Positions 5,400 to 14,447 of a DNA stretch of 64,000 nt are shown here, piece after piece. The stretch comes from Rhodanobacter sp. Soil772 (GTDB lineage: Bacteria; Pseudomonadota; Gammaproteobacteria; Xanthomonadales; Rhodanobacteraceae). Position numbers and translations under genes: made by a program. Each line of letters starts with the position of its first letter. Within the stretch, counting starts at the first letter, position 1. The stretch covers positions 774,704 to 838,703 of the forward strand of contig NZ_LMSK01000002.1 of the NCBI RefSeq assembly GCF_001428385.1, given 5' to 3'. The notes beneath the pieces were generated by a model that did not search any database, was not told where the DNA came from, and saw only the letters and a program-made list of their open reading frames with translations.

Positions 5400-5706
5400 C
5401 AGTCACTGCGCTCGGTCGAAAGATTGTCGGTGTCTCCGGCAACCGGGGCAGACACCCCGGCACTTCATGAGCGTTTGCACGCCTCGGCGGATGCAACGCC
5501 TGTGCGTGCCGTAGCGTGGGCAATCATTGCGATCGCCCGAATGGCCTCACACCGCTTCGCTCGATTCTATAGGCCGGCCCGACCGGTCGGCAAACGCGCA
5601 GCGCGAGGGCGGTCACCGGGTTTAAGCACTTCGTAAGCGGATGACCGGATAATCTCCCCACGAGTCGCGCCGCCTCCATGGTGCCCGCGATCGAAGGAGC
5701 CTGTCC
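5400..5706. other. Divergent intergenic region between mrpA and the two-component system
   Basis: This gap of 307 bases must hold the mrp promoter (leftward) and the regulator promoter (rightward). A GC-rich inverted repeat (CCGGGGCAGACACCCCGG, 5440-5457) lies near the mrpA start. The right part contains the TAAG direct repeat and -10 box described separately. A good ribosome site (AAGGAG, about 5694-5699) precedes the GTG at 5707. I could not place the mrp promoter with confidence. Confidence 0.6.
5621..5653 (+). promoter_or_regulatory. Putative response-regulator direct repeat and promoter of the two-component operon
   Basis: Two half-sites, TTTAAG (5621-5626) and CGTAAG (5632-5637), are separated by five bases, giving an 11-base period. 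Ten bases later comes a -10-like GATAAT (5648-5653). The layout matches the direct-repeat boxes bound by PmrA/QseB-type OmpR-family regulators (half-site HTTAAD, spacing 5) with one mismatch in the second half. The same arrangement, including the 10-base gap to the -10, recurs ahead of the pump operon at 14415-14447. Autoregulation is an inference. Confidence 0.6.
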
Positions 5707-6372
5707 GTGCACATCATCCTGGTCGAGGACGATCCCCAGCTCGGCGCGGCGATCCAGCGCGCGCTGGAACGCCTCGCCTATACCGTCAGCTGGCTGCGCG
5801 ACGGCCGCGAGGCGCTGCTCGCGCTGCGCGACCAGACCGCCGACCTGGTCCTGCTCGATCTCGGCCTGCCCGGCAAGGACGGGCTCGACGTGCTGGTCGA
5901 GGCGCGCCGCCTGCACGTCAAGACTCCGGTGCTGGTGATGACCGCACGCGACACGCTGGACGACCGCGTGCGCGGCCTCGACGCCGGTGCCGACGATTAC
6001 CTGGTGAAACCCTTTCACCTGGAGGAACTGGGCGCACGCATCCGCTCGCTGACCCGACGCGCGCAGGGCCTGGCCGCCAACCGCATCGATGCGGGTGCGT
6101 TGAGCCTCGACCTGGGCACCTCCGAGGTGAGCTTCCGCGGCGCGCGGGTCGAGCTGACCAAACGCGAATTCGCCCTGCTGCAGATCCTGATGGAACGCGC
6201 CGGTCGGCTGGTGCGCCGCGAGAACCTGGAGAACTCGCTGTATGGCCTGGACAACATGGTCGGCAGCAGTGCGCTGGAAGTGCTGGTGCACACGCTGCGC
6301 CGCAAGCTGAGCTTCGACACCATCCAGACCGTGCGCGGCTTCGGCTACATGATTCCGCGGGAGCCCCAATGA
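5707..6372 (+). CDS. OmpR/PhoB-family response regulator (PmrA/QseB-like)
   Basis: 221 residues. The receiver domain spans residues 1-115 with the acidic pair D8-D9, the phosphoacceptor Asp51 in LVLLDLGLPGKDG, the switch Thr in VMTARD and Lys in DDYLVKPF. The C-terminal winged helix (about 125-218) contains the usual ELTKREFALLQILM and VHTLRRKLSFDTIQTVRGFGYM. It starts with GTG, supported by an AAGGAG ribosome site 7 bases upstream. Its end overlaps the kinase ATG by four bases. The receiver and winged-helix style is that of the PmrA/QseB/TctD branch. The repeated TAAG motif in front of this gene and of the pump operon suggests it controls itself and the efflux genes. Confidence 0.93.
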   Translation: MHIILVEDDPQLGAAIQRALERLAYTVSWLRDGREALLALRDQTADLVLLDLGLPGKDGLDVLVEARRLHVKTPVLVMTARDTLDDRVRGLDAGADDYLVKPFHLEELGARIRSLTRRAQGLAANRIDAGALSLDLGTSEVSFRGARVELTKREFALLQILMERAGRLVRRENLENSLYGLDNMVGSSALEVLVHTLRRKLSFDTIQTVRGFGYMIPREPQ

Positions 6373-7781
6373 GGTTGGCGAGCCCGCTGAAGCCGGCCAG
6401 CCTGCACGGCAGGTTGCGCCTGCTGATCATCGTCGTGCTGCTGGCCGTGCTGCTGCCGCTGGGCGTGCTCAGCTTCCATCGCACCATCACCGAGGTGGAC
6501 GAGCTGTCCGACGGGCGGCTGGCGCAGTCGGCGCGGACGCTGCAGGTGCTGATCAAGCATGCCGACATGCAGGCCCTGCAGGGGGGCGACGCCGCGGATA
6601 CGCTGGTGCCGATCGAAGCCGGCCGCACCCGCCCGCCGAAGCGGCAGCGGAACACCTACGAGTCCGAAGTCGGCTTCCAGGTATTCGACCGCACCGGGCG
6701 CACGCTGCTGGCCACCGCGAACCTCGCCGCCCTGCCGCCGCCGGCGGCCGGCGATGCGGACTTCCAGGATCTGCAGCAGGGCGGCTACCGCTGGCGCGTC
6801 TTCACCCTGCGCGACATGGCCGAGGGCGTGGTGATCCGCACCGGCGAACGTTACGACAGTCGCCACGACATCATGCGCGCGGTGTGGCTGGAGCACAGCC
6901 TGCCGCTGCTGATCGGCCTGCCCCTGCTGGCCCTGCTGGTGGGCTGGGCCGTAAGGCGCGGATTGCGCCCGCTCGAAGCGCTGACCCGTGCCCTCTCGGC
7001 GCGGAAGCCGGGCAGCCATGAACCAATGCAGCTGCCCGATGCGCCGCTGGAATTGCAACCGGTACTGGCCGCGCTGAACGGCCAACTGGCGCGACTGGAG
7101 GATGCGCTGGAACGCGAGCGCCGCTTCAGCGCCGACGTGGCGCACGAACTGCGCACGCCGCTGGCCAGCGCCATGATCAATCTCGAAAGCGCGATGACCA
7201 CCACCGATCCGGCCGAACTGAAGGCGGGCCTGGTCAGCGCCCAGCACGGCATCGCCGGACTGGCGCGCCGGATCGAACAGCTGCTGGCACTGGCCCGGCT
7301 GGAAGCAGGTGCGGCGTCGAGCCAGCGCGGCCGCGTCGACCTGGTGGCGGTGGCGATGGGCGTGATCGAGGAGCTGTCGCCGGTGATCGCCGACAGTGGC
7401 GTGGAGTTGAGCTTTGCGCGGCTGACGCCGCAGGTGTCCGTGCAGGGTTACGAGGCCGCACTCGCGGCCCTGCTGCGCAACCTGCTCGAAAACGCACTGC
7501 GCCACGTGCCGGCCGGCGGCCAGGTGCAATTGTCGATCGAACAGGGCGAGCGCGTGGTGCTGATCGACGTCATCGACGATGGCCCGGGCATTCCGGCCGA
7601 ACGCCGCGCCAGCGTGTTCGCCCGCTTCCATCGCGAAGCCGGCAGCCGCGGCGACGGCTACGGACTGGGCCTGTCGATCGTGCAACGCGCGGCGCAGTTG
7701 CACGATGCCACGATCGAACTGCTCGACTCGCCGTACGGCAGCGGCCTGCGCGTACGCGTGGCGATTCCCTTGCGGCCCTGA
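6369..7781 (+). CDS. Sensor histidine kinase, QseC/PmrB-like
   Basis: 470 residues. A first membrane helix (about 17-37) is followed by a periplasmic region of roughly 140 residues of the 2CSK_N type (YESEVGFQVFDRTGRTLL), then a second helix (about 178-195, LLIGLPLLALLVGWAV), a linker, the HisKA domain with His259 in FSADVAHELRTPLAS, and the HATPase domain with N box NLLENALRH, DDGPGI and GDGYGLGLS. It lies in the inner membrane, phosphorylates and dephosphorylates the regulator encoded just upstream (ATGA overlap), and senses an unknown periplasmic signal. It converges on the propeller gene with only seven bases between stops. Confidence 0.93.
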   Translation: MRLASPLKPASLHGRLRLLIIVVLLAVLLPLGVLSFHRTITEVDELSDGRLAQSARTLQVLIKHADMQALQGGDAADTLVPIEAGRTRPPKRQRNTYESEVGFQVFDRTGRTLLATANLAALPPPAAGDADFQDLQQGGYRWRVFTLRDMAEGVVIRTGERYDSRHDIMRAVWLEHSLPLLIGLPLLALLVGWAVRRGLRPLEALTRALSARKPGSHEPMQLPDAPLELQPVLAALNGQLARLEDALERERRFSADVAHELRTPLASAMINLESAMTTTDPAELKAGLVSAQHGIAGLARRIEQLLALARLEAGAASSQRGRVDLVAVAMGVIEELSPVIADSGVELSFARLTPQVSVQGYEAALAALLRNLLENALRHVPAGGQVQLSIEQGERVVLIDVIDDGPGIPAERRASVFARFHREAGSRGDGYGLGLSIVQRAAQLHDATIELLDSPYGSGLRVRVAIPLRP

Positions 7782-7788
7782 GACCTGC

Positions 7789-8820
7789 TCAAGGCCGCCC
7801 GACGGTGAGGACGCCGAAGCTGTCCGGCTCGATCGTGCGACGGCCGTTGGCCTGCCGAGTCGCGCCCAGCCGCGCCGCGGAGAGATACAGCCGGTGCAGC
7901 TTCGGATCGAGCGCGAGCGTGCGCGCGCTGGCCTGGGTGGGGATGGTCGCGGTCACGCGGTAGTGGTCCGGAGCGTCCTCGTGCACCGCGGTGATCGTGC
8001 CGCTCTCGCCATTGGCGCTGTAGATCATCGCCTCGGCCGGATCGAACACCACGCCGTCCGGGCCATCGCCGATCGGCACGTCGGCCACGTGGTGGCCGTC
8101 GACCGCATCGAGCACGGCCATCGTGCGGTTGTCGCATACCGAGAAAAGCCGATGGTGCGGATTGTCGAGGGCCAGCCCGCTCGGCGATTCGCACGGTGCC
8201 AGCGGCCACACCTGCAGCAGCTTGCCGTGGATCGCATCGAGCTGGGCCAGCTCGGACTTGTCCTCGATGTTCACGTAGACATGGCCGGCACCATCGGCCA
8301 CCGCGAACTCCGGCTTGCCGGGCAGCGCGATGCTGCCGATCACCGCGTTCTTCGCCGGGTCGATCACGCTGGCGCTGGCGCTCTTGCCGTTGAAGGTCAG
8401 CACGTGGTGCGAAGCGCTGTCGTACAGGATCGCGTCGGGATTCTGGCCGGTGCCTGCAATCGTCGCCACAGTTTTCAATGACGCCAGATCGAACACGGTC
8501 ACCGACGCGCTCTTGCCGTCGCTGATGAAACCGCGATGCAGGTCATCGGCCAGCGCGATGCCGTGCACGCCCGCCGTGCCGCCGATCGTGCCGACCTGCT
8601 TGCCGGCATCGACGTCGATCACCAGCACGCGGTCGCCGCGGCTGACGAACAGGTGGCGGCTGGGCGCATCGAAGGCCAGATAGTCCCAACCGCCCGGGCC
8701 GCCCAGCGCCAGTCGCGACAACAACCGTGCGGGCGGCGGCGTGGCGGCCGACGCCGCTTGCGGGAGAATCGCCAGCGCCAACAGCGCAGCGGGCAACAGC
8801 TTGCGGATCAGTCGTGGCAT
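7789..8820 (-). CDS. Secreted YncE/YVTN-type beta-propeller protein
   Basis: 343 residues with a clear Sec signal peptide (MPRLIRKLLPAALLALAILP, cleavage near ASA-A, about residue 28). The mature part shows repeated blade units such as GGWDYLAFDAPSRHLFVSRGDRVLVIDVDAGK, SASVTVFDLASLKTVATIAG and DGVVFDPAEAMIYSANGESGTITAVH, typical of the seven-bladed YncE family (about 330 residues). The molecular function of this family is poorly known; periplasmic DNA or ligand binding has been proposed for YncE itself. It lies 61 bases downstream of the RND permease on the same strand, so it may be the last gene of the pump operon or use its own promoter. The upstream ATG at 8820 is preferred because it directly opens the signal peptide. 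Confidence 0.85.
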   Translation of the reverse strand: MPRLIRKLLPAALLALAILPQAASAATPPPARLLSRLALGGPGGWDYLAFDAPSRHLFVSRGDRVLVIDVDAGKQVGTIGGTAGVHGIALADDLHRGFISDGKSASVTVFDLASLKTVATIAGTGQNPDAILYDSASHHVLTFNGKSASASVIDPAKNAVIGSIALPGKPEFAVADGAGHVYVNIEDKSELAQLDAIHGKLLQVWPLAPCESPSGLALDNPHHRLFSVCDNRTMAVLDAVDGHHVADVPIGDGPDGVVFDPAEAMIYSANGESGTITAVHEDAPDHYRVTATIPTQASARTLALDPKLHRLYLSAARLGATRQANGRRTIEPDSFGVLTVGRP

Positions 8821-8866
8821 GACGGCACCTTGGCTGGATGGAATGGTCGGCCCAGCATGTGCGCGA

Positions 8867-8886
8867 TCGCTTATGCGCGCCTTAGC
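8867..8886 (-). promoter_or_regulatory. Possible third TAAG direct repeat ahead of the propeller gene
   Basis: Read on the minus strand this is GCTAAG-N5-CATAAGCGA, the same TAAG-N7-TAAGCG(G/A) core as at 5621 and 14431. It is weaker evidence than the other two. The first TAA is also the stop codon of the RND permease, and the expected -10 position (CATGCT) is poor. Confidence 0.35.
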
Positions 8887-11800
8887 CGGCCGCCCTTTGC
8901 CCATCGCGGCGGCGCAGCAGCGCGTACAGCACCGGCATCAGCAGCAGCACCAGCGGCACCTGCACCAGCAGGCCGGCGATGATCGCCACCGCCAGCGGCT
9001 GCTGCATCTGCGAGCCCCCGCCGAGCGCCAGCGGCAGCAAGGTGAGCATCGCGGCCAGCGTGGACATCAGGATCGGCCGCGTGCGGTGCCGGCCCGCCTC
9101 ATGCAACGCCTCGTGCAGCGGCATGCCGGCGGCGGCCTGTTCGAGTTCGGAGAAGTAGAAGATCGCCACTTCGGTGACGATGCCGACGATCATCGTCATG
9201 CCCATCATCGCCGAGATGTTCAGCTCGATGCCGGTCAGCCACAGCCCGGCGAACACCGCAGGGATCGCCAGCAGCGGCATCGCCAGGATCACCAGCGCCA
9301 CCCGGAAACTCTCGTACAAAAACAGCAGCAGGGCGAACACCAGTGCGATCGCCGCCAGCAGCACGATGGTCAGCCCGCGAAACGCCTGCTGCTGCTGCTG
9401 GTACAGGCCGCCGAGCTGGTAGTACATGCCCTTGGGCAGCAGGCCGGGCCGGGCCAGCACGCGCTTGACGTCGGCGATGGTGGCGCCGAGGCTGCGCCCG
9501 CTAATGCGCCCGGTCACCGCGACCATCCGTTTCAGGTTGTCGCGGGTGATCTGCGGCTGGCCCTGCACCTGCTTCAGCGTGGCCACCCGCGACAGCGGCA
9601 GCAGGTGACCGTCGCCGGCGCGGATCGGCAGCGCGGCGACCTGTTCCAGCCGCTGATGCGTCGCGGCCGGCAGGCGCACGCGCACACCCACCAGCTTGCC
9701 GTCGGTGGGAAGTTGCGCCGCCACGGTGCCGTCGATCGCCGCGGCGACCTGATCGGTGACGCTGGCCGGGTCGAGACCTTCCAGCGCGGCCCTGGCCGGA
9801 TCGACCTGCACGGTCAGCGCATCGCCGGCCGGGTTGATGCCATTGCGCACGCCGACCACGCCGCCGACCTTGCCGACCGCCGCGGCGACCTTGCCGGCGG
9901 TGGCGGAAAGCTGGGTCGGGTCGTCGCCGTACAGCTGGATCTCGATCGGTTGCGGCACCGCCACCAGGTCGCCGATCAGGTCCTCCATCAGCTGCGACAG
10001 CTCGATGTCCAGCCCCGGCACATGCTGCTCGACCTCGCCGCGAACCTGCTCCATCACCTGCTCGGTGTCGGGGCGCGAGCCGCTTTTCAGACGCACGAAG
10101 AAGTCGCCCTGGTTCGCCTCGGTGAGGCCGCCGCCGAGCTGCAGGCCGGTGCGCCGCGAATAGGTGTCCACGTAGGGATTCGCGCGGATGATCGTCTCGA
10201 CCTGGCGCAGCAGCCGGTCGGTTTCCTGCAATGAAGTACCCGGCGGCGACAGGTAGTCGAGGATGAAACCGCCCTCGTCCATCTGCGGCATGAAGCCGGT
10301 GCCGACGCGGGTGAAAGCCAGCCCACCGACCAGCAGCAGCGGCACGACCAGCAGCAACACCAGCAGCGGTCGCTGCAACCAGTGCTGCAGGATGTTCTGG
10401 TAGCCCTGCATCATGCGCCGGGTGAAGCGGCCCGGTGGATGTTCGGCGCGATGGCGTTCGTCGAGGAAACGTTCGGCCAGCAGCGGCACCGCGATCCAGG
10501 TCAGCAGATACGAAATGACCAGCGCGCTGGCCATGGTCAGCGACAGCGCCTTGAAGAACGCGCCGGTGACCCCGGTCAGAAACGCCAGCGGCAGGAAGAT
10601 CACCACGGTGGCGGCGCTGGAACCGGTCAATGGGCGGGTGAACTCCCACGCCGCGGCAGCGATCCGTTCGTGCACTTCGCCCGCGTCCTGCGCGCCTTCG
10701 CCCGGATGCAGCCGGCGCATGATGTGTTCGAGCATCACGATCACGTCGTCGATGATCAAGCCGACCGCCGCGGCCATGCCGCCCAGCGTCATCATGTTGA
10801 AACTCATGCCGAGCACCGACAGCAGCAACACGGTGATCGCCAGCACCGCCGGCACCACGATCAGCGCGACCAGGATCACCCGCGTGTTGCGCAGGAACAC
10901 GAACAGCACCAAGCCGGCCAGCAGCACGCCGATCAGGATCGCATCGCGCACGCTCGCCGCCGCGCCGCTGACCAGCTGGGTCTGGTCGTACCAGTTGGCG
11001 AGGCGCACGCCGGAGGGCATCTGCGGCGCGTAGTCGGCCAGCCGCTGCTTCACGTCCTTCGCGATCTGCACGCTGTTGCCGTCGGGCTGCTGGTAGACCT
11101 GCAGCAGCACCGCGTCCTGGCCGTCGGCGTTGACGCGGATCCACTGCGGCACGTGGTCGAGGCTGACCGCCGCCACGTCGCCCAGCCGCACCGCGCCGCC
11201 GGGGCCGGCGCGCAGCACGATGCCGCGCAGCGCGGCCAGCGTCTTCGGCTGGTTGTCGGCCAGCAGCAGGTACAGCTTGTAGTGATCGGCGACGCGACCC
11301 ATCGCCTGGATCGTCGCCGCATGGCTGACCGCCGTGGCCACGTCGGCCAGGCTCAGTTGCAGCGCGCGCAGCTTGCCCGGATCGACGTCGGCGTGGAACT
11401 CGGCCACCTCGCCGCCCTGCACCTGGACCTGGGCCACGCCGCTGATCCCGCTCAGCAACGGACGCAGCTGGTACTCGGCCAGGTCGTGCAGCGCACTCGG
11501 CGACTGTGTGTGCGAGCGCAGGCTGTAGGCCAGCACCGGGAACGTACTCGGGTCCATCCGCCGGGTGCTCAGCTGGGTGCCGGCCGGCAGCTGCGGCAGG
11601 ATCTGCCCGGCCGCGGCATTCACTTCCTGCAGCGCCGCGGCCATGTCCGCGCCCCAGTCGAACGTCACCGCCACCTCGGCACTGCCGCGGCTGGTGGTGG
11701 AACGCACGTCGCGCACGCCGCGCACGTGGCGGATCGCCTCCTCCACCGGCGTGGTCACCTCGATCGCCATCTGGTCGGCCGGGCGGTCGCCCGCATCCAG

Positions 11801-11944
11801 CGACACTTGCACGCGCGGGAAGGCCACGTTCGGGAACAGCGCTACCGGCATCCGCAGCGCGCTGGCGATGCCGCCGATCGCCAGCATCAGGGCGAGGAAC
11901 AGCAGCGAACGCCGATGCCGTTGCATCCATGCGGTGACGCTCAC
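8882..11944 (-). CDS. RND efflux permease (AcrB/HAE-like)
   Basis: 1020 residues, the normal length of an RND pump. The protein has an N-terminal helix, two large periplasmic loops (about 30-330 and 555-860) and two six-helix bundles. The fourth helix carries the paired aspartates in GLIIDDVIVMLEH, the proton-relay pair of drug-type pumps, rather than the altered motif of CusA-like metal pumps. It is third in an operon with overlapping starts; the GTG start overlaps the adaptor stop (GTGA). It takes substrate from the periplasm and membrane and hands it to the adaptor and outer membrane factor encoded upstream. Substrate is not evident from sequence. Confidence 0.93.
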   Translation of the reverse strand: MSVTAWMQRHRRSLLFLALMLAIGGIASALRMPVALFPNVAFPRVQVSLDAGDRPADQMAIEVTTPVEEAIRHVRGVRDVRSTTSRGSAEVAVTFDWGADMAAALQEVNAAAGQILPQLPAGTQLSTRRMDPSTFPVLAYSLRSHTQSPSALHDLAEYQLRPLLSGISGVAQVQVQGGEVAEFHADVDPGKLRALQLSLADVATAVSHAATIQAMGRVADHYKLYLLLADNQPKTLAALRGIVLRAGPGGAVRLGDVAAVSLDHVPQWIRVNADGQDAVLLQVYQQPDGNSVQIAKDVKQRLADYAPQMPSGVRLANWYDQTQLVSGAAASVRDAILIGVLLAGLVLFVFLRNTRVILVALIVVPAVLAITVLLLSVLGMSFNMMTLGGMAAAVGLIIDDVIVMLEHIMRRLHPGEGAQDAGEVHERIAAAAWEFTRPLTGSSAATVVIFLPLAFLTGVTGAFFKALSLTMASALVISYLLTWIAVPLLAERFLDERHRAEHPPGRFTRRMMQGYQNILQHWLQRPLLVLLLVVPLLLVGGLAFTRVGTGFMPQMDEGGFILDYLSPPGTSLQETDRLLRQVETIIRANPYVDTYSRRTGLQLGGGLTEANQGDFFVRLKSGSRPDTEQVMEQVRGEVEQHVPGLDIELSQLMEDLIGDLVAVPQPIEIQLYGDDPTQLSATAGKVAAAVGKVGGVVGVRNGINPAGDALTVQVDPARAALEGLDPASVTDQVAAAIDGTVAAQLPTDGKLVGVRVRLPAATHQRLEQVAALPIRAGDGHLLPLSRVATLKQVQGQPQITRDNLKRMVAVTGRISGRSLGATIADVKRVLARPGLLPKGMYYQLGGLYQQQQQAFRGLTIVLLAAIALVFALLLFLYESFRVALVILAMPLLAIPAVFAGLWLTGIELNISAMMGMTMIVGIVTEVAIFYFSELEQAAAGMPLHEALHEAGRHRTRPILMSTLAAMLTLLPLALGGGSQMQQPLAVAIIAGLLVQVPLVLLLMPVLYALLRRRDGQRAAG

Positions 11945-12993
11945 CGGGCGGACTCCCGCACCGCATCGCCGTCCGCCAGTTCGTAGGCACCGAGCACGAT
12001 CACTTTCGCCCGCGCATCGAGCGGGCCCTGCACGCCGACGGGATCGCCGCCCGGGCTGCGCAGCGTCACGTCGATGCGTTTGGCGTGACCGTGCTCAAGC
12101 TCGAACAGGTAGTCGCCGTGTTCATCGTGCAGCACCGCCGCACGCGGTACCGCCCACGCGCTGAAATCGGCCGTGCGGATCTGCGCATCCAGCGCGGCAC
12201 CGGCGACCAATGCGACGCCGGCCTCGGCCGGCAATTCGACCTGTGCACCGAGCAGATGGGTCTGCGGGTCGATCGACTGGCCGATCATGCGCAACGTGCC
12301 CACGAAGCCGGCCTGGTCGCCATACACGCTGCGCAGTTGCACCGACATGCCGGCACGCAGTTTCGCGCCGTCTTCCGGCTGCACGCCCAGTTGCGCCACC
12401 AGCGCATGCGCCGGGGTGAAACCCAGCAGCGGCGTATTCGCGGCGAAGCGCTCGCCCAGACCCACGCCGAGTGTGCCGACCACGCCATCGGCCGGCGCGC
12501 TGACGGTTTCCTGCGCGCTGCCGCCACCCAGCGCGCGCTGCGCCGCCAGCGCGGCCTGCGCGTCGGCCAACGCCTTGCGCGCGGTCGCCAGTTGCGACTG
12601 CGTGGCCAGCCGCTGTGCCACCAGTTGTTCGGTACGCTTGAGTTCGCCGCTGGCTAGGCCCAGCGCACTCTGCGCCTGCTGGTACGCGCTGCGCGCGGCC
12701 GGGTCGGGCGCGATCGTCAGCAGCGGCTGATCGCGCCGCACGCTCTGCCCGGCCGTCACATGCAGCGCCACGACCTGGCCGCCATGCGCAAGGCTGATCG
12801 CACGCGCGCGCTGCGGATCGCCTGCCGCGCTGCCCCAGGCTTCGACGGTGTCGTGAAAGCTCTGCTGCACCGGCGTGGCGGTGGTCACCGCCACCTGGCC
12901 TTTGGCCACCGCCGCTTCTTCGTCATCGGCGGCGCCGTGGCTGCACGCGGCCAGCAGCAGGCACAACAGCGGCAAGAGCAGCGATCGGTTCAT
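11941..12993 (-). CDS. RND periplasmic adaptor (membrane fusion protein), lipoprotein
   Basis: 350 residues. The signal peptide ends in a lipobox (LLAAC, Cys17), so it is probably anchored to the inner membrane by lipid. A biotinyl/lipoyl-like half (HGGQVVALHVTAGQSVRRDQPLL) is followed by an alpha-helical hairpin (about 105-165, rich in A, Q and R), the second lipoyl half (VSAPADGVVGTLGVGLGERF), then beta-barrel and membrane-proximal domains. It links the RND permease to the outer membrane factor. Its ATG overlaps the stop of the outer membrane factor gene and its stop overlaps the permease GTG, so all three are coupled. Confidence 0.92.
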   Translation of the reverse strand: MNRSLLLPLLCLLLAACSHGAADDEEAAVAKGQVAVTTATPVQQSFHDTVEAWGSAAGDPQRARAISLAHGGQVVALHVTAGQSVRRDQPLLTIAPDPAARSAYQQAQSALGLASGELKRTEQLVAQRLATQSQLATARKALADAQAALAAQRALGGGSAQETVSAPADGVVGTLGVGLGERFAANTPLLGFTPAHALVAQLGVQPEDGAKLRAGMSVQLRSVYGDQAGFVGTLRMIGQSIDPQTHLLGAQVELPAEAGVALVAGAALDAQIRTADFSAWAVPRAAVLHDEHGDYLFELEHGHAKRIDVTLRSPGGDPVGVQGPLDARAKVIVLGAYELADGDAVRESAR

Positions 12994-14354
12994 GGCGTGG
13001 ACGCCTGTGCGGGAACGGGATGGGCGATAGCGCCAAGCTCGGTGTTGCCGAGCAGCGCTTCCAGCGCGATCGACTGCGTGGCCTGTTGCTGCTGCACGGC
13101 GAGCAGGTCGAGGTCGGCGGCCAGCGACTGGCTGCGGATCGCCAGCCAGGTCGGCCAGTCCAGCAGGCCTTGCCGCCATGCTTGTTCTGCGGCGCCGCGC
13201 GCGTCGGCCAGTTGTTTCGCGTGGGCAGTCAACGTGCGCTGCTGCCGATCCAGCGTGGCGAGATCGGCGCCGAGCCGCTGCATGTCGCTGCGCGTGGTCA
13301 GCACGCGCGCTTCGTAGTCGTCCTTCAATTGCTGCCGGGTCGCCTGTTCGATCGCGATGTTGCCGCGATTGCGATCGAACAGCGGCAGCGTGATGCCGAG
13401 GCTGAAGCCGTGGGTGTAGATGGCGCTGGTGTCGCGTGCGCTGTTGAAGCCGATGTTCAGCGCGGGAAACTGCGCCAGCACCGCGCCGCGCAGTTTGGCT
13501 TCCTGCGACTGGTAACCCGCCTGCAGCGCCAGCAGATCGGGCCGCCGGCGCGGCAACTCGGCCAGCGCCTGCTGCAACTGCGCCGAGGTCGGGGTGACTT
13601 GATAAGGCGCGCCGACCAGCTCCAGCGGTGCCGTCGGTGCGAGCCCGAGCAGCACGTGCAGGTCGCTGTCGGCCTGATGCAGGGCGACCGCGTTGTCGGC
13701 CTGCTGTTTGCGCACGTCCGCGGCGGCATTGAGGCCGGCGCTGGCGCCGTCGTAGGTGAGGTTGCCGGCAGCCAGTGCCGCATGGATGTAGCCGCCGACC
13801 TGGTCCAGCGCCGCCTGTTCGCCGGCCAGCCGAACCTGCTGCGCGCGCAGGTTCAGCACCTGGTCGAACAGCAATCGTGCCTGCGCCACGGTCTGCCACT
13901 CCGCCCACAGCAGGTCGAGGTTCACCTGCCCGGCCTGGCTGCGCGCCGCCGCCTGGCGCGACGAGCGCGTCAGCAGCGCGCTGATGTCTTCACTCAGCCC
14001 AAGGTTGAACGCCGTAGTCAGGCCGCCGCCGGAGTGGCTCGGAAAATCCTCGCCCAGGCTCAGCTGCGGATCGGGCAGCAGCCCGGCCGCGAACGCCTGC
14101 GCGCGGGCCACGCCCAGTTCGTCGCGCTTGAGCTTCAACGCCGGGCTGTTCGCCACCGCCAGCATCGCCGTCTCGGTGACGTCCAGCCCGTCGGCGGGAT
14201 CGAAGCGATGCGTCGCCAGCGACGGCAGCGGCATGTTGGCGGTGGGCGCAACGAGTTGCGCCACGCTGGCCGCACCTTCGCCCCGGCCCAGCGGCAGCGG
14301 CGCGTAGCTGGCGCAAGCCGACACGATCAACGTGACGGCGACGACCCAGGTCAT
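12990..14354 (-). CDS. Outer membrane efflux protein (TolC/OprM family)
   Basis: 454 residues from the chosen ATG. The start MTWVVAVTLIVSACAS gives a short signal with a lipobox (Cys14). The rest is the paired OEP repeat of long helices, with ALKLKRDELGVARAQAFAAG and PDPQLSLGEDFPS in the first half and RRPDLLALQAGYQSQEAKLRGAVL in the second. It forms the outer membrane and periplasmic tunnel for the adaptor/permease pair encoded downstream. An in-frame ATG at 14408 would add 18 residues, but the predicted -10 at 14415-14420 would place transcription start at about that point, so the internal start is preferred. Neither start has a strong ribosome site. Confidence 0.88.
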   Translation of the reverse strand: MTWVVAVTLIVSACASYAPLPLGRGEGAASVAQLVAPTANMPLPSLATHRFDPADGLDVTETAMLAVANSPALKLKRDELGVARAQAFAAGLLPDPQLSLGEDFPSHSGGGLTTAFNLGLSEDISALLTRSSRQAAARSQAGQVNLDLLWAEWQTVAQARLLFDQVLNLRAQQVRLAGEQAALDQVGGYIHAALAAGNLTYDGASAGLNAAADVRKQQADNAVALHQADSDLHVLLGLAPTAPLELVGAPYQVTPTSAQLQQALAELPRRRPDLLALQAGYQSQEAKLRGAVLAQFPALNIGFNSARDTSAIYTHGFSLGITLPLFDRNRGNIAIEQATRQQLKDDYEARVLTTRSDMQRLGADLATLDRQQRTLTAHAKQLADARGAAEQAWRQGLLDWPTWLAIRSQSLAADLDLLAVQQQQATQSIALEALLGNTELGAIAHPVPAQASTP

Positions 14355-14414
14355 GCGCAGACCGGATGTCACCGCGGGAAGGTGTCGCTGGTGGCCGGCA
14401 TCATGCATGCCGCC

Positions 14415-14447
14415 ATTCTGGAAGCCGCCGCTTAGTTCTTTCTTAAG
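14415..14447 (-). promoter_or_regulatory. Putative response-regulator direct repeat and promoter of the RND pump operon
   Basis: On the minus strand: CTTAAG (14447-14442), five bases, ACTAAG (14436-14431), ten bases (starting CGG), then CAGAAT (14420-14415) as a -10. The site ahead of the two-component genes at 5621-5653 has the same order, spacing and shared TAAGCGG core. The first half-site matches the PmrA/QseB consensus fully and the second has one mismatch. It lies about 80 bases upstream of the outer membrane factor start. Confidence 0.6.

Follow-up and report, generated by a model that had tools for sequence, protein, structure and literature searches.

A conserved TAAG direct repeat as the predicted operator of a PmrA-like two-component system, an RND pump operon and a YncE-like propeller gene in Rhodanobacter

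In this work, we have analysed a stretch of 64,000 nucleotides from Rhodanobacter sp. Soil772 (assembly GCF_001428385.1, contig NZ_LMSK01000002.1, positions 774,704 to 838,703 of the forward strand; hereafter the window), in which the direct repeat TAAG-N7-TAAG, here called the box, lies ahead of a two-component system (TCS), a resistance-nodulation-division (RND) pump operon and a gene for a YncE-like beta-propeller (yncE for short). Based on our results, we consider it likely that these boxes serve as operators for the PmrA-like response regulator (RR) encoded beside them, an autoregulated activator that would drive itself, the pump and the propeller, and probably also a heptosyltransferase-like gene located elsewhere in the genome. 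The boxes themselves, their rarity, their spacing, their conservation and their independence of gene order can be read directly from the genomes that we compared, and we present these observations first.

The original prediction had placed three copies of TAAG-N7-TAAGCGR in this region, and an exact scan recovers all of them, at 5623-5640 on the plus strand and at 14428-14445 and 8867-8884 on the minus strand. Box 1 (TTAAGCACTTCGTAAG, 5622-5637, plus strand), which sequence and conservation mark as the predicted autoregulatory operator of the TCS, is followed by the -10-like hexamer GATAAT (5648-5653, plus strand). Box 2 (TTAAGAAAGAACTAAG, 14431-14446, minus strand), the predicted operator of the pump operon on the same two grounds, precedes CAGAAT (14415-14420, minus strand), and box 3 (TAAGGCGCGCATAAG, 8870-8884, minus strand), likewise recognised by sequence and conservation ahead of the propeller gene, precedes CATGCT (8854-8859, minus strand), the three hexamers being assigned from sequence. 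At all three boxes, 10 bases separate the second TAAG from the hexamer; this gap had been noticed for GATAAT and CAGAAT and it holds when it is counted from TAAG rather than from TAAGCGG, with CATGCT being added here. Sites 1 and 2 are better described as TTAAG-N6-NTAAG, and they match the BqsR-type TTAAG-N6-TTAAG in 9 of 10 bases, site 3 in 8 of 10. In a consensus scan, none of the three boxes showed a sigma-70-type -35/-10 pair, and their placement suggests that they occupy the -35 position, as in activator-dependent promoters.

Such an arrangement had been judged hard to obtain by chance, and the counts bear this out. In the window, whose G+C content is 68.6%, the exact pattern TAAG-N7-TAAGCGR occurs three times as compared to none in 100 dinucleotide shuffles. 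When up to two mismatches are allowed, there are 6 matches against 5.79 expected; only exact matches carry signal, since the relaxed count is close to that of the shuffles. A lone TAAG occurs 22 times in the window and, among the arrangements TAAG-Nk-TAAG with k from 0 to 24, k = 7 is the sole spacing present. A scan of the whole genome (G000; 3,571,513 bp), which had been put forward as a check, found the exact pattern only three times, all in the window (reversed control pattern, 4), and TAAG-N7-TAAG five times, three of them in the window, as compared to 20 for the control pattern. The binomial chance of finding at least three of five within 8.8 kb is 1.5e-7, a value computed after the fact. 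We treated the fifth genome-wide TAAG-N7-TAAG (C3:388669) as a chance occurrence, as an opposite-strand open reading frame (ORF) overlaps it and there is no good -10 at 10 bp.

We then turn to conservation. For the comparison, 32 loci surrounding yncE homologues were taken together with 40 that surround kinase homologues or box matches (loci, genomes and contigs are referred to by our labels L, G and C), with six genes mapped by tblastn; boxes were counted as exact TAAG-N7-TAAG within 150 bp upstream, with the window included, and the congeneric yncE set was defined by an identity of at least 66%, with the duplicate locus L137 dropped. Many of the sampled loci are closely related, so the counts do not represent independent events. 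Upstream of the RR, the exact box was found in 21 of 28 Rhodanobacter loci and in 23 of 29 others, which comprise 28 loci of 14 other genera and a 71% identical paralogue, L169; at least one exact box occurs in 12 of these 14 genera. Upstream of yncE it was found in 18/26 congeneric and 3/5 other loci, and upstream of tolC of the same pump type (own-type) in 16/22 congeneric loci and 0/2 of another genus. More distant yncE homologues (L059-L070, 36-57% identical) stand outside these counts; they have no exact box and a 7/8 match in three cases, and for L059-L061 (53-57% identity), reading the ORFs revealed no adjacent two-component regulator. At all other spacers from 0 to 20, no congeneric set has more than one exact box and none of the other sets more than two. 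Relaxing the half-site to WAAG lets other spacers appear (up to 4/26 for yncE), and spacer 3 at tolC, in 12/22, is an overlap within the box (AAAGAACTAAG). Averaged over each gene set, the match to TATAAT is best at 10 bp past the box, reaching 4.9 and 4.0 of 6 for the RR, 3.5 for tolC and 3.08 for an alternative pump described below. In alignments, the boxes upstream of RR, yncE and tolC appear as conserved islands amid diverged flanks; even the RR promoters of three congeneric loci without an exact box (L043, L044, L131) show an aligned TCAG-N7-CAAG and retain GATAAT. The conservation upstream of orthologues that had been proposed as a second check is thus found at most loci, with fixed distances between the half-sites and to the -10. 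In a wider sample of the best 80 named loci with kinase relatives, at least five of which repeat genomes of the other sets, the exact RR box is present in 10. Seven of these belong to the 12 closest loci, with RRs of 72-89% identity, and three to the 68 others; the five close loci lacking it (L172, L176, L178, L179, L181) have RRs of 72-76% identity. One locus, L173, comes from a record titled Candidatus Eremiobacteraeota bacterium, and its RR and yncE share 80% and 68% identity, respectively, with those of the window; its contig looks like misassigned DNA of this bacterial family.

A further candidate target lies on a different contig from the window. At C3:413110-413124 (L008:1501-1515), TTAAG-N6-CTAAG is followed after 10 bp by TACTGT, and this box is located 290 bp ahead of the first ATG in a heptosyltransferase-like gene of glycosyltransferase family 9 (GT9). 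Among 30 homologous loci (of at least 46 matches), in which the box was sought within 420 bp upstream, the exact box is present in 6, including L310, L312 and L314, and at least 7 of its 8 bases in 12; the other spacers tried (3-11) give at most 1 and 4, respectively. In four genomes (G026, G031, G033, G003), the GT9 gene is found between the kinase and yncE, with the box in the version TAAG-N7-AAAG (L325-L328). A DNA search with the GT9 upstream stretch in six congeners returned short repeat-like matches only. From these comparisons, the regulon probably extends to the GT9 gene and thereby to glycosylation of the lipopolysaccharide (LPS) type. The original prediction had one regulator controlling one module of three units; a single operator class does join all three, but the set is probably larger by the GT9 gene, and the box is not exclusive to this regulator, as we describe next.

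Several observations weigh against the adjacent RR being the reader of these boxes, or at least their only reader. The exact box is absent from 7/28 RR, 8/26 yncE and 6/22 own-type tolC congeneric loci, as well as from both own-type tolC loci of the other genus, and the GT9 box is absent (fewer than 7 of 8 bases) in 18 of 30 loci, including L309, the closest homologue among the matches listed. The -10 of yncE matches poorly, with a mean of 2.94 of 6 at its peak at 10 bp, and the three non-congeneric yncE boxes have no -10 peak at 10 bp (2.0 at several offsets). In the RR itself, serine stands in place of N188 and threonine in place of N196, the two asparagines that make base-specific contacts in PmrA of Klebsiella pneumoniae (KpPmrA). 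Six yncE rows that form one clade (support 91/85) lack the yncE box, as do two single rows, and the same six loci also lack the tolC box. In this clade the TCS is displaced from yncE in four genomes, and an RR orthologue was not found in two. The joint loss is probably one event, and for this reason it supports the link between regulator and box weakly. In loci L047, L048, L053, L137 and L140 of the clade without yncE and pump boxes, recognition-helix residues 187-188 are D-N (N-N in L137), as compared to S-S or N-S; it is possible that regulator and sites have co-evolved there, although L048 and L140 retain an exact RR box.

A further objection concerns boxes in genomes without this regulator. 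An RR match at E 1e-55 is missing in 13 of 45 congeners and, in six genomes without such a match (G010, G012, G015, G017, G020, G023), the orthologous pump (RND 75-85% identical) is nevertheless boxed, as is that of G004, where the nearest RR is 75% identical; these seven genomes (L268-L274) were picked for having the box and give no rate, and G017 and G020 are 79% and 82% complete. In addition, a gene for a PepSY_2 protein (90 amino acids where whole; L251-L267) is present in 17/45 congeners and is boxed in all 17, with TAAG-N7-TAAGC beginning 67-71 bp upstream of the start, also in G022, G028 and G032, which are without this TCS. Ten of these 17 congeners encode, 0.6-0.8 kb downstream of the PepSY gene, an RR with 47-49% identity; for the other seven, none was found among the matches listed at the E limits used. 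We had considered the PepSY gene as a distant target of the RR and dropped it, because it adjoins another regulator where one is listed and has no match in G000 (E 1e-12). Taken with the boxed paralogue L169, these sequences suggest that the box is probably a code common to related regulators.

This leads to the alternative that survives best, namely that control of the pump and the propeller is shared with, or lies mainly with, another PmrA/QseB-like regulator, the adjacent RR being one of several readers. In the genomes without an RR orthologue, the half-sites of the pump boxes are conserved and their spacers have diverged, which speaks for it together with the PepSY boxes and L169. We nevertheless regard it as unlikely: G000 has neither a PepSY match (E 1e-12) nor a second RR at E 1e-55, its next two RRs (43-44% identical) have different recognition helices and no box within 200 bp (best 5/8), and the yncE and RR boxes stay together in L144, L149 and L153. 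A search for candidate readers in G000 and the six genomes without the TCS listed, besides the RR of the window, regulators of at most 47% identity, none of which has a box within 200 bp.

A second alternative is that boxes 1 and 2 are operators and that the propeller copy is a coincidence. As the original prediction had pointed out, the first TAA of box 3 is the stop codon of the permease gene; this is so in the window and appears so in the aligned congeners, and site 3 is also the furthest from TTAAG-N6-TTAAG. Against this, besides the majority of boxed yncE loci in the genus and the three of another genus, L054, L055, L058 and L136 keep the yncE box although the neighbouring pump differs (RND 53-55% identical) and is transcribed divergently from yncE; the yncE box is therefore not a product of the permease stop codon, being kept in four genomes without a permease end upstream, and we give this explanation almost no credence. 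In L144, L149 and L153 (genus g36), the RR and yncE boxes are both present and there is no pump homologue within the fetched stretch. The alternative pump itself (RND 53-55% identical) has a relaxed WAAG-N7-TAAG upstream of tolC at 12 of 13 loci and an exact TAAG at 0/13; the sole miss, L166, has an RND 73% identical, which is an own-type permease and not of the alternative type. In other genera (L145-L148, L150, L151, L154, L156), the alternative pump follows the kinase, with AAAG-N7-TAAG at the same spacing upstream of tolC. In the sequences compared, the boxes are thus independent of gene order. Finally, the repeats could have arisen by chance, or they could be a promoter feature common in the genus that has no dedicated regulator. 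This explanation could draw on their short half-sites, the many single TAAGs and the unremarkable count of relaxed matches, but a chance origin is very unlikely given the exact copies absent from shuffles, the genome-wide rarity and the enrichment of spacer 7 alone for exact half-sites, and the explanation as a whole is barely tenable.

We therefore return to the adjacent RR as the probable reader and propose the following mechanism, for which the operator layout of BqsR and the head-to-tail half-sites of PmrA serve as precedents. The kinase would sense an envelope signal and the RR would become phosphorylated. A phosphorylated RR dimer may then bind head-to-tail to the two TAAG half-sites, which, being 11 bp apart, would lie on the same face of the DNA. 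Bound in the -35 region, 10 bp upstream of the -10, it would recruit RNA polymerase to promoters without a recognisable -35, and so activate both its own operon and that of the pump (tolC-mfp-RND). The secreted YncE-like propeller would be expressed from an additional promoter where the pump operon ends, and the distant GT9 heptosyltransferase-like gene would probably be activated as well. Binding, activation and the kind of signal are thus predicted features of this model, as is a role in envelope defence that would combine efflux with a change of LPS. A bolder and tentative version, which we find rather doubtful when taken in full, is that of an undescribed envelope-defence regulon of this bacterial family in which TAAG-N7-TAAG-N10-[-10] joins the sensor pair and an LPS heptosyltransferase-like enzyme to interchangeable RND pumps and the propeller, the latter acting as a periplasmic partner of the pump or of the sensor. 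The code would also have outlived its reader, with another RR taking over the boxes where this RR is absent.

The genes around the boxes fit two operons that converge. On the plus strand (5707-7781), the OmpR/PhoB-family, PmrA-like RR (5707-6372) is followed by the sensor histidine kinase (6369-7781), which by profile matches is QseC/PmrB-like with a 2CSK_N N-terminal region. On the minus strand, from 14408 to 8882, a complete RND tripartite set is encoded together, with the TolC-like outer-membrane factor (12990-14408; PF02321), the periplasmic adaptor mfp (11941-12993; TIGR01730) and the permease of the AcrB/MdtB/CzcA superfamily (8882-11944; PF00873), all three above the cut-offs. The yncE gene, of 343 amino acids, lies downstream of this operon on the same strand (8820 to 7789). 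The true start of the TolC-like gene is probably the in-frame ATG at 14354 rather than 14408 (window 14408-14352), because the -10 adjoins 14408. The product from ATG 14354 begins with a lipoprotein-like signal. The permease is below the NCBIfam subfamily cut-offs (482.2 as compared to 701.45 bits for the CusA/CzcA model TIGR00914) and, in the PDB, it matches nothing at E 1e-100 and MdtB/AcrB/MexB-type chains at 1e-20. The propeller exceeds the cut-off for the YVTN repeat TIGR02276 (45.3 against 27.85 bits) and remains far below that of the YncE equivalog NF052280 (52.9 against 400 bits). Its N-terminus, judged by eye, is signal-peptide-like. Among the solved structures that best match the predicted fold (mean predicted local distance difference test score, pLDDT, 90.9) are a YVTN propeller from an archaeon and E. 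coli YncE (3vgz), the latter being alike at a template modelling (TM) score of 0.75-0.77 by query length.

The RR has a receiver domain (PF00072, 96.2 bits) and a winged-helix DNA-binding domain (PF00486, 69.9 bits), both above cut-off. Its best NCBIfam model is PmrA (PRK10643), at 227.6 bits with a cut-off of 330, and its best PDB relatives are PmrA/BasR chains, with the CarR receiver domain also among them. The QseB and QseC models give 195.6 and 216.9 bits, below their cut-offs of 345 and 475. As the cut-offs of the NCBIfam models listed are not reached, none of the RR, kinase, permease or propeller should be given an equivalog name. The 11-bp direct repeat and the 10-bp gap to the -10, conserved in the main gene sets, are what is expected of an OmpR/PhoB-type operator, and from this likeness the RR would bind the 11-bp repeat. 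Of the base-contacting residues of KpPmrA, V192, H195 and R210 are kept in the RR, and S187 (T187 in KpPmrA), S188 and T196 differ. The periplasmic ExxE motif, which binds iron in the iron-sensing kinases BqsS and PmrB, is present in the kinase as E42xxE45 and is invariant in 12 aligned orthologues. Fe2+ sensing has been reported for BqsS (PMC12666569), and we had considered arguing for iron sensing from this motif; we dropped the idea since ExxE is widespread in such kinases, being present in 50 of 68 relatives among the best 80 loci whose alignment reaches it.

We found no description of this regulon among the matches listed from the open-licence literature. The operator system that the boxes represent is real, conserved and of a known type, and its target set is apparently undescribed. 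Importantly, sequence analysis alone was enough here to define a small regulon that lends itself to testing, with its three promoters lying together. An uncharacterised family of secreted beta-propellers gains a regulatory context, that of an RND pump and probably of LPS modification, and genomes that have the pump box but not the regulator provide a natural setting in which to study how operators survive a change of regulator. Members of Rhodanobacter have been described as dominant in the acidic, metal-contaminated ground at Oak Ridge (PMC8809349).

The original prediction had related the repeat to PmrA/QseB-type regulators. The PmrA half of this label fits, as does BqsR, by their printed consensus sequences, while E. 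coli QseB has a different printed consensus, which is not the TAAG repeat (PMC10729948), so PmrA/BqsR-type is the better label. The BqsRS/CarRS system of Pseudomonas aeruginosa is alike in its pair of TTAAG pentamers, in the 6-bp gap and in the downstream pentamer, which at the bqs promoter overlaps the -35 (operator TTAAG-N6-TTAAG; PMC4682146). Here the second pentamer is NTAAG and the candidate targets comprise the RND pump and the YncE-like propeller, with the GT9 gene as a probable addition. PmrAB (BasRS) of enterobacteria provides the nearest NCBIfam and PDB relatives of the RR, and KpPmrA binds the head-to-tail half-sites CTTAAT and CCTAAG as an 11-bp repeat (PMC3973317, PMC4660055), alike to the layout seen here; the differences are the score below the equivalog cut-off, the replaced N188 and N196, and a kinase that scores higher with QseC than with PmrB. 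With QseBC/PreAB, the kinase shares the 2CSK_N region and has its top score for QseC, whereas the scores stay below the cut-offs and the printed E. coli QseB consensus differs from the box. Lastly, SmeSyRy of Stenotrophomonas maltophilia adjoins the RND pump operon SmeYZ and affects its expression (PMC4981351), as we propose for the system of the window; in the cited parts of that work SmeSyRy is divergent from its pump and no propeller gene is mentioned, whereas the TCS and the pump operon of Rhodanobacter sp. Soil772 converge.

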